DNA of 64,000 nt from positions 1 through 64,000 of the IMG/VR virus record IMGVR_UViG_3300042566_000706; one strand, 5' to 3'. Positions within the stretch are counted from its first letter, which is position 1, and each line of letters opens with the position of its first letter. The notes under the pieces are model-generated. The model worked only from the letters and a program-made list of their open reading frames with translations, did not search any database and was not told the origin of the DNA. Shown here piece after piece: positions 11,513 through 22,879 of this stretch. A program made the position numbers and the translations under genes. This stretch comes from a virus.

Positions 11513-11535
11513 AAAGGGGATTTTTCATCCCCTTT
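11513..11535 (-). terminator. Rho-independent terminator
   Basis: An 8-bp stem (AAAGGGGA with TCCCCTTT), 7-nt loop and a minus-strand T run, 12 bp after the glutaredoxin stop. It ends the NusG - AAA ATPase - thioredoxin - glutaredoxin run. Confidence 0.85.
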
Positions 11536-11547
11536 ATTAAAATAATC

Positions 11548-11820
11548 TTAATTAATGTATTTTAGTATCTTTTCTAGCAGTTCTTCTTTGCTCTGATAAT
11601 CTCTCCCAGGAACAAAAATTGGTCCGGCACCTGTTTCAGGATTTTGTAAATATGTTGTTGGTAATGAGTTTTTACCAGTTAATTTAACAATCTCATCAAA
11701 AGTTGATTTATGTTGTGAAATTTCAAGTTCGTTAAATGTGATATTATTTTCCTTTAACATTTTTTTTAATTCAACGCAGTGACTACACCCATTTAATGTA
11801 AAAATATTAACTGTATACAT
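11548..11820 (-). CDS. Glutaredoxin
   Basis: A 90-residue thioredoxin-fold protein with active site C-S-H-C near residues 12-15 (FTLNGCSHCVELKKML), the cis-proline element N-S-L-P-T-T-Y (about residues 51-57) and a C-terminal helix. It corresponds to class I-type glutaredoxins (usual motif CPYC; CSHC is a variant). The likely role is reducing the phage ribonucleotide reductase or other disulphides in the cytoplasm. It follows thioredoxin by 2 bp in the same operon and is closed by a terminator. Confidence 0.85.
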   Translation of the reverse strand: MYTVNIFTLNGCSHCVELKKMLKENNITFNELEISQHKSTFDEIVKLTGKNSLPTTYLQNPETGAGPIFVPGRDYQSKEELLEKILKYIN

Positions 11821-11822
11821 AA

Positions 11823-12128
11823 TTAAAGTTTTTCCAAATGTTCTATATAAAACTTATCTGGATTTGCCCCAGCAGATTGATTGATTAACGTTTCACCATC
11901 ATAAATTTTAACTGTTGGGACAGACCTAATACCACTCTCCGCCATATACGATTGATTTTGGTCAACATCTATTTTAACAAATTGAATATGTGAAAATTCT
12001 TGTTCTAATTTTTCTAATCTAGGCATTAACGACTTGCAGGGTCCACACCATTCAGCGTAAAAGTCCACTAGTAATTTTTCCCCGTTATTTAATTTTGTTT
12101 TTAATTGTTCTGCTGTTATTAATTTCAT
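11823..12128 (-). CDS. trxA: Thioredoxin
   Basis: A 101-residue thioredoxin. Active site W-C-G-P-C-K at about residues 27-32, preceded by LLVDFYAEWCGPC, the buried Asp of V-D-F, and the cis-Pro loop S-V-P-T near residue 70. Full-length for the family and cytoplasmic (no signal peptide). It probably donates electrons to the phage ribonucleotide reductase encoded at 61-64 kb; T7-style use as a polymerase factor is possible but unsupported here. It abuts the AAA ATPase stop with no gap. Confidence 0.92.
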   Translation of the reverse strand: MKLITAEQLKTKLNNGEKLLVDFYAEWCGPCKSLMPRLEKLEQEFSHIQFVKIDVDQNQSYMAESGIRSVPTVKIYDGETLINQSAGANPDKFYIEHLEKL

Positions 12129-13229: not shown

Positions 13230-13523
13230 CTAATTCAATGAAGTTGGTGGATAATCGTTAAAAATAAAATAGATTCCTTCTTGTCTATACTTCGGCCTTT
13301 CGTCCACAGTTTCTAATACAACGTTTAAACGCAAGGATTCCATTTGCTCTTTTGTCAATTCTGGTTCTCCGTTCTTTTTAAAATTTTTTTCTGAAATGTT
13401 TGATAGTTGGGTGAAAAATTTATCTTCATTACCATTAACAATGAAATAGTTTCTAGCATCTTCATTTATTTTAAGGAAATGTTTAATGCGTTCTACATAT
13501 ATTAAAACTTCTGGGTTACTCAT
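13230..13523 (-). CDS. Small conserved protein, unknown function
   Basis: A 97-residue soluble protein rich in Glu and Lys, starting MSNPEVLIYVERIKHFLKIN. The C-terminus (Y-F-I-F-N-D-Y-P-P-T-S-L-N) is aromatic and proline-containing. No known motif. Its start codon overlaps the stop of the nusG-like gene by 4 bp, indicating translational coupling with it, so a partner role is conceivable. Confidence 0.65.
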   Translation of the reverse strand: MSNPEVLIYVERIKHFLKINEDARNYFIVNGNEDKFFTQLSNISEKNFKKNGEPELTKEQMESLRLNVVLETVDERPKYRQEGIYFIFNDYPPTSLN

Positions 13524-14044
13524 ATCTTTTTAATATTTTGAATGTCTATTGTTACAGGTGTTAAGCGACCAAAAATTTTAACTTGCAATTCCACTTTGTC
13601 ACCTTTAATTTCCATAATGGTACCGTTGAATGAAGCAAATGGTCCGTCTGTTAGTACAACATCCTCACCCGCTACAAAGGTAATTGATTTTACATACTTA
13701 TGTTCATTTAACATCTCATCTTTAATAATTTTACCAATATCGTGTCTACCCATCAATCTAGGTTTCTTATCCCCTAACATAGACATAACAAAAGGATGGC
13801 TTGAGATTTCTTTTAATTCATTATCGTTTAATTCTCTTGGTGTTTCAAAATAAAGATATCCGCTATACAATATTTTATCCCTTAAAACCTTCTTTTTTCT
13901 TAATACAACAAACTCCTTTTCCATTGGGCATATGAATCTATTTACGTAACCCATTCTATCTAATGCGATTAACGTATTAAAATTTTCATTCATTTGTCTT
14001 TCTTTTCCTGGTGTTACTTTTAACACATACCATTTGTTTTCCAT
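13520..14044 (-). CDS. nusG: NusG-family transcription elongation factor
   Basis: A 174-residue protein with both NusG domains. The NGN domain (about 1-110) starts K-W-Y-V-L-K-V-T-P-G-K-E-R and holds S-G-Y-L-Y-F-E. The KOW domain (about 120-174) reads G-E-D-V-V-L-T-D-G-P-F-A-S-F-N-G, then V-K-I-F-G-R-L-T-P-V-T. These match the bacterial NusG consensus closely, and the length is normal for NusG. NusG binds RNA polymerase and affects pausing, termination and coupling to ribosomes. A phage copy could replace host NusG or act as a specialised paralogue like RfaH. It is the first gene of its minus-strand operon. Confidence 0.9.
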   Translation of the reverse strand: MENKWYVLKVTPGKERQMNENFNTLIALDRMGYVNRFICPMEKEFVVLRKKKVLRDKILYSGYLYFETPRELNDNELKEISSHPFVMSMLGDKKPRLMGRHDIGKIIKDEMLNEHKYVKSITFVAGEDVVLTDGPFASFNGTIMEIKGDKVELQVKIFGRLTPVTIDIQNIKKI

Positions 14045-22048: not shown

Positions 22049-22879
22049 TTATAAATAGTTTAGGAGTCCAAAACTCTCGTTTCGCAATTTCTTAATTGCT
22101 TTATCTTTTAATTGTCTAATACGTTCTTTGGTGCAACCAAATTCTTCACCTAGGTCATCTAGGTTTCTTTCGGTACCACACAAACCAAAATAACCCTCAA
22201 TAATGGTTTTCTCTCTGTCATCTAGGATTGCTAACATATACTTCATCTTTTTCTTAATCTCATCAAGATTATTCATAGATTCCATAGGGTCAATTGAATT
22301 AGGATTAGCAATAACTTCTATTAATGTGTCACCATCTTCATTTATTTCTTTATATAAATCAACTGTTGTTGGAATACCGATTAAAACATTATCATTGTAT
22401 TCGATAAGGTAACTATCCTCTTCATTTTTTATTTTCTTTTGCTTTTGAATATCTTGCAAAACGTTTGACGGTATTCTTATTGTTCTTGAATTTTCCGTTA
22501 ACGACTGCATTATAGATTGTTTCACCCACCACACAGCATATGATATAAATTTAAAACCAGAAGTAACGTCAAATCGATCAATGGCTTTCATCAAACCAAT
22601 ATTGCCTTCTGAAATTAAATCCAATAAATCCATTCCTTGATTTTGATACATCTTAGCAACGGAAATAACAAATCTTAAATTACCTAAAATCAATTCTTCA
22701 ACTAAAGCGTTTTTTTGTTCTTTAGTTGTCTCTTTGTTTTTAAACGCCATGAAAATTTCAAATTCTCTTTGCGCTTCTATTACTGGGATTCTTTTTAAAT
22801 CCTTGATGTAATATTTTAGTTCTTCGGTTTTAACCATTGGGCTGGTATTTTTCATTCGTTTTTGGGTTTTGTATAGCAA
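22049..22879 (-). CDS. RpoD-like sigma-70 factor
   Basis: A 276-residue sigma factor with regions 1.2, 2, a shortened 3 and 4, but no 1.1. Region 2 includes N-L-R-F-V-I-S-V-A-K-M-Y-Q-N-Q-G, L-I-S-E-G-N-I-G-L and F-I-S-Y-A-V-W-W-V-K-Q-S-I. R-T-I-R-I-P follows. Region 4 holds D-D-R-E-K-T-I-I and C-T-K-E-R-I-R-Q-L-K-D-K-A-I. This is close to the primary sigma of Bacteroidota (about 285 residues, also lacking 1.1) rather than to T4 gp55. It should direct host RNA polymerase to phage promoters. Start codon uncertain: ATGs at 22879, 22855 and 22837. Confidence 0.92.
   Translation of the reverse strand: MLYKTQKRMKNTSPMVKTEELKYYIKDLKRIPVIEAQREFEIFMAFKNKETTKEQKNALVEELILGNLRFVISVAKMYQNQGMDLLDLISEGNIGLMKAIDRFDVTSGFKFISYAVWWVKQSIMQSLTENSRTIRIPSNVLQDIQKQKKIKNEEDSYLIEYNDNVLIGIPTTVDLYKEINEDGDTLIEVIANPNSIDPMESMNNLDEIKKKMKYMLAILDDREKTIIEGYFGLCGTERNLDDLGEEFGCTKERIRQLKDKAIKKLRNESFGLLNYL
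22050..22057 (-). promoter_or_regulatory. TATTTATA motif
   Basis: TATTTATA on the minus strand, 18 nt upstream of the ATG at 22031, overlapping the last codons of the sigma-factor gene. Confidence 0.35.

Follow-up and report, generated by a model that had tools for sequence, protein, structure and literature searches.

The 64 kb of DNA analysed (the window) come from a virus record of 90,962 b in IMG/VR, in which there is one match to NusG. The record is confirmed as that of a phage by its T4-type genes, among them a tail sheath, a ribonucleotide reductase and an SbcC/SbcD-type nuclease, together with a UvsX/RecA-like recombinase, a gp41-type helicase and an RNase H that were assigned by reading the open reading frames (ORFs). 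The nearest named phage tail sheaths are 28-38% identical to that of the record, indicating that it has no close cultured relative in the collection compared. The nusG gene, for which the original prediction gave no strand, lies on the minus strand in a cassette that also encodes an AAA ATPase, a thioredoxin and a glutaredoxin (Table 1).

Table 1. Features of the nusG locus and other genes of the window discussed in the text
Feature	Position	Strand	Remarks
nusG, 174 aa	13520..14044	-	ATG start; stop TGA at 13520-13522
NGN domain, residues 4-106	13727..14035	-	predicted to bind RNA polymerase; PF02357 match and fold match
KOW motif, residues 126-155	13580..13669	-	in C-terminal beta-barrel; PF00467 match and modelled strands
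I157-F158-G159-R160 loop	13565..13576	-	Rho and S10 contact; aligned with I164-F165-G166-R167 of E. coli NusG
Conserved ORF, 97 aa	13230..13523	-	no family match; ATG overlaps nusG stop (ATGA)
AAA ATPase, 354 aa	12129..13193	-	syntenic neighbour
Thioredoxin	11823..12128	-	same cassette as nusG
Glutaredoxin	11548..11820	-	same cassette as nusG
Terminator-like hairpin and T run	11513..11535	-	after glutaredoxin gene; possible operon end, weak
ORF, 49 aa	14145-14294	+	divergent from nusG; by reading of sequence
Sigma-70-type factor	22049..22879	-	regions 2 and 4
Protein, 514 aa	20197-21741	-	antitoxin TacA1 match
Protein, 2296 aa	43582-50472	-

The overlap of the nusG stop codon with the start codon of the 97-aa ORF suggests that the two are translationally coupled. 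Three terminator-like hairpins were found, as against 1.8 expected by chance. No Shine-Dalgarno-like sequence was seen before the nusG start codon, which would fit a Bacteroidota host but does not prove one; none of secE, rplK and rplA adjoins nusG in the window; and a search with Rfam found no RNAs. The GC content and GC3 of nusG are in line with those of the neighbouring genes, in a phage genome of 33.6% GC. The nearest named matches of the AAA ATPase are in Pseudomonas and Xanthomonas jumbo phages (42-45% over the C-terminal two thirds). Elsewhere in the window, the 514-aa protein matches antitoxin TacA1 (PF08681) at residues 177-218 and has no PHROG match, and the 2296-aa protein, which has no Pfam match, adjoins several proteins that share PHROG 15511.

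The original prediction of a full-length NusG homologue with both NGN and KOW domains is borne out by the 174-aa ORF, which aligns to all 172 of the 172 positions of the TIGR00922 nusG model and contains both of the motifs that had been quoted, DGPFASFNG and IFGRLTPV. The Pfam NusG family (PF02357) is matched at 38.9 bits against a cut-off of 22.2 (model positions 2-92 of 93; residues 4-106), and KOW (PF00467) at 20.1 bits (E 5.6e-4), slightly below its cut-off of 22.3. PHROG 6386 ('transcription antiterminator') aligns over residues 2-173 (positions 12-178 of 179; E=3.4e-20), and a phmmer search of the PDB matched Aquifex NusG at E=2e-17. The TIGR00922 score of 104.4 bits is below the equivalog cut-off of 135.7; the protein belongs to the NusG superfamily and falls on its housekeeping side, without being a certified equivalog. 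Because the score falls below this cut-off, and because the stem branch of its clade is long (see below), the function may have shifted from that of housekeeping NusG. The profiles of the specialized paralogues all score far below TIGR00922: LoaP (NF033641) reaches 50.4 bits where at least 125 are needed, UpxY (NF033644) 46 bits where at least 100 are needed, and RfaH (TIGR01955) 27.5 bits where at least 144.5 are needed.

Alignment of 42 phage sequences, numbered as in E. coli with a Salmonella NusG (L358) as the reference row, reveals that W9, Y10, G17, E19, P45, G67, Y68, G131, G139, F141, F144, F165, G166 and R167 are invariant and that F65 is replaced by an invariant Tyr. In the I-F-G-R loop, F, G and R are found in 42 of 42 sequences and position I164 is either I or V; I164, F165 and G166 are contacts of NusG with Rho that RfaH has lost (PMC7593976), and S10 is bound by the same KOW region as Rho (PMC7819879). 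The clade also has fixed changes of its own, which adjoin the polymerase-binding patch: the proline of 'FPGY' is never P (S, N, T or G instead); a 'PGKER' loop contains an invariant P; Cys occupies E. coli position 44; and 'GYLYFE' is found as against 'GYVLVE'. As regards binding to RNA polymerase, W9, Y10 and Y68 are unchanged throughout and F65 is Tyr. The interaction residues open to comparison are conserved, and the loss of contact surface that would have spoken against the original prediction did not occur.

An AlphaFold model of the protein, of moderate confidence (mean pLDDT 78.7; pTM 0.53, at which the arrangement of the domains is unreliable), combines an NGN domain with a KOW domain of beta type, whose strands are E128-131, E140-147, E150-157 and E160-167. 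The KOW domain is predicted to be a beta-barrel and not the alpha-hairpin that RfaH has when free. Solved NusG structures rank best in a Foldseek search with the model, and the top viral match is F5B3X4. The modelled NGN domain alone superimposes on RNA polymerase-bound NusG of Bacillus subtilis (8ehq_G) over 111 columns with an rmsd of 2.7 Å and a TM-score of 0.78 by target.

The phylogeny that the original prediction had called for, against host NusG, RfaH and UpxY-type paralogues, included 13 Chitinophagia-type and 14 other Bacteroidota NusGs, 8 others, 12 UpxY-type paralogues, RfaH and other phage NusGs. The clade of the window NusG is monophyletic (100/100) with a long stem of 1.07 changes per column, and a 99/93 branch parts UpxY and RfaH from this clade, which falls on the side of housekeeping NusG; the tree places it on that side only and does not fix its exact position among housekeeping NusGs. 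Among the matches listed, the best bacterial ones are mostly from Bacteroidota and are 28-39% identical, a measure of similarity rather than placement, and a scan of the bacterial-genome collection with the clade alignment found no close relative. The gene was probably acquired in the distant past from the housekeeping nusG of a bacterium, and the donor was probably, though not provably, a member of the Bacteroidota.

As a single-sequence query over viral contigs, the window NusG had no match. Relatives were reached through scans with the neighbouring sigma factor and ATPase, which yielded 147 related loci on contigs of up to 335 kb; a NusG alignment query, run later, matched 68 loci. The resulting set contains 42 distinct NusG sequences including that of the window, to which the others are 41-66% identical. 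Of the 69 ATPase loci of the relatives, 43 carry NusG. In every case it lies immediately before the 97-aa ORF, in the order NusG, 97-aa ORF, AAA ATPase, thioredoxin, glutaredoxin, and in most cases it is preceded by a D12-class (Dam) methylase. In the other 26 loci, with one exception (L136), the methylase directly abuts the 97-aa ORF or the ATPase, leaving a clean empty site. The 97-aa ORF itself is conserved in almost every relative, where it separates the AAA ATPase from NusG (or Dam). Searches of 28 whole records found exactly one NusG in 11 and none in 17, the latter including contigs of 310, 310 and 288 kb.

On the tree of the ATPase, the presence and absence of NusG require 3 changes, compared to 11.5 for shuffled labels, and there is one starred NusG-minus clade of 11 rows. 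Distances between NusG sequences correlate with those between ATPases (Mantel r=0.83; none of 2000 permutations as high), and dN/dS of the closest NusG pairs is 0.035-0.11; by these comparisons, nusG is under long-term purifying selection and co-diverges with the neighbouring ATPase. Synteny, co-divergence, dN/dS, GC3 and the lack of a close bacterial relative together indicate that nusG is old, vertically inherited, selected and sometimes lost. On an outgroup-rooted ATPase tree, built to polarize gain against loss, NusG is found on the deep branches L152 and L131; early presence with later losses is favoured but not proven, as the outgroup is too distant to settle the deep nodes. The retention of nusG in the same place throughout dozens of related phages makes it probable that the gene is a genuine working component of transcription in these phages.

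The original prediction linked NusG with the sigma factor of the window as joint control of initiation and elongation. This is unsupported as stated: the sigma factor is present in 21 of 21 records searched, and 9 of these same 21 have no NusG, so the two are separable. NusG is neither universal in the lineage nor tied to sigma; joint action of the two is a conjecture, and the data do not require a coupled scheme. A second, weaker protein with sigma-70 region 2, of approximately 235 aa and possibly a late sigma factor like T4 gp55, is encoded in 14 of the 21 records (G019-G023, G026, G027, G001-G004, G006, G008 and G009).

No homologue of the RNA polymerase beta or beta' subunits (Rpb1 and Rpb2 domains) or of NusA was found in 16 records that include contigs of 198-335 kb, which may be incomplete and in which a very divergent polymerase could be missed. 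The partner of the phage NusG should therefore be the RNA polymerase of the host. In known cases, the NGN domain attaches to the clamp helices and the gate loop, and KOW provides a link to S10 or Rho (PMC7819879). By analogy, the NGN domain of the phage protein may bind the beta' clamp helices and the beta gate loop of host RNA polymerase, displace or supplement host NusG on phage transcription complexes and suppress pausing. On long, AT-rich operons of the phage, the KOW domain may tether the leading ribosome through S10, with Rho as a further potential partner. The observations as a whole are probably best explained by a phage NusG that was anciently captured, is inherited within a lineage of large T4-like phages and acts with the host polymerase; against this stand the score below the equivalog cut-off, the long stem branch, the fixed changes next to the polymerase-binding patch, the moderate confidence of the model and the subclade of relatives that does without NusG. 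Host NusG is most likely replaced by the phage protein on phage transcripts; the balance between antitermination and pro-termination cannot be read from sequence. A more specific proposal, which we advance tentatively and with more doubt than conviction, is that the lineage swaps the host elongation factor for its own NusG, whose tuned polymerase patch would beat host NusG and which would still tether ribosomes. If so, these phages would take over the elongation stage by replacement of a paralogue and not by small modifier proteins.

It is unlikely that the phage NusG is a decoy for host takeover rather than a working elongation factor. Such a decoy would be produced in surplus, so as to displace host NusG by competition and to tie up Rho or S10 through its intact KOW loop, and would thereby shut down host expression or block the Rho-dependent silencing of phage genes. 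Retention of the Rho/S10 loop throughout the clade, despite its loss by RfaH and its absence from the UpxY rows, is what such a decoy would show, and the AT-rich genome is of the kind that Rho silences in E. coli (PMC7819879); however, the NGN domain, with which a decoy working purely by KOW could dispense, is equally conserved, and the location of the gene in a redox/ATPase cassette beside tail-fibre genes gives no sign of early host-takeover timing. Rather less likely still is an operon-specific antiterminator of the RfaH, UpxY or LoaP kind, brought to particular long operons of the phage by a signal in DNA or RNA. Specialized NusG paralogues commonly drive long gene clusters (PMC7819879), and some genes of this phage are very long (up to 2296 aa), but the tree groups the window NusG with housekeeping NusG, the profile scores of the three paralogues are far below their cut-offs, the KOW domain is predicted to be a beta-barrel and the Rho loop, which RfaH has lost, is retained. 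The lack of Rpb1 and Rpb2 domains in the 16 records makes it very improbable that NusG serves a multisubunit RNA polymerase encoded by the phage rather than that of the host. Such polymerases are encoded by some huge phages. That nusG came into the record by a recent, accidental insertion from a host, or through a chimeric assembly, and does nothing for the phage has a negligible probability: although some records in phage collections are really bacterial contigs (MaAM05 and a Salmonella contig), synteny and phylogeny rule it out here, there being 42 distinct homologues in the same slot of related phage contigs, co-diverging under purifying selection, with no close relative in the bacterial-genome collection and none of secE, rplK and rplA alongside; the random host insertion absent from related phages that might have undone the original prediction is thus not what was found.

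The NusG of ancient capture and lineage inheritance that we favour resembles bacterial housekeeping NusG in length, in NGN and KOW domains, in the IFGR loop and core NGN residues, and in its side of the tree, but differs in that the gene lies outside a secE-nusG-rplK-rplA operon and the FPGY proline is lost. UpxY, RfaH and LoaP belong to the same superfamily and are antiterminators of long operons, whereas the window clade keeps the Rho/S10 loop and groups with housekeeping NusG. Full-length NusG is also encoded by the T4-like cyanomyoviruses S-CRM01 (g104), S-CREM2 (gp183) and S-B68, which differ in their cyanobacterial host, in gene order and in forming a separate clade (approximately 24% identity to the S-CRM01 protein). 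Huge phages of 634-735 kb (LR756501, LR745206, LR756502 and LR756504) encode full-length, unannotated NusGs of 30-36% identity that branch outside the window clade, at a point that the tree does not fix, and have other neighbours (nuclease-like and deaminase-like ORFs in locus L007).

Most known phage control of elongation is exerted by small proteins, which act on complexes of the host that include its own NusG and modify them. Antiterminators of the Xp10 p7 and lambda N type are phage proteins that alter elongation by the host polymerase; they are small and unrelated to NusG, and modify host complexes rather than copy NusG. Two reviews of NusG treat phages only as users of the host protein, a literature search of incomplete coverage found no dedicated study of phage-encoded NusG, and the S-CREM2 paper does not mention NusG. 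The statement in the original prediction that phages usually hijack NusG rather than encode it needs qualification: an encoded NusG is less unusual than this implies, being already annotated in the cyanophages S-CRM01 and S-CREM2 and covered as a family by PHROG 6386. What is added here is a large and unusually well-conserved NusG lineage, which shows fixed synteny and signs of selection. A single-copy, phage-borne nusG and close relatives without nusG at the same slot offer a natural comparison of infection with and without the gene.

Several other 'phage' matches were set aside as bacterial nusG: 'Microcystis phage MaAM05' (MW495066.1) and a Salmonella contig on account of a secE-nusG-rplK-rplA context, and matches from Listeria and faecal fragments by similarity to host NusG only. 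In S-CREM2 (L354:2986-4187) and S-B68 (L355:2986-4260), nusG is no more than approximately 1 kb from a glutaredoxin gene and near RNase H, which may be a coincidence. MW495066.1 (L010:7582-9916) has, besides the secE-nusG-rplK-rplA operon, a tRNA and many metabolic genes, and looks like a segment of a cyanobacterial chromosome deposited as a phage.
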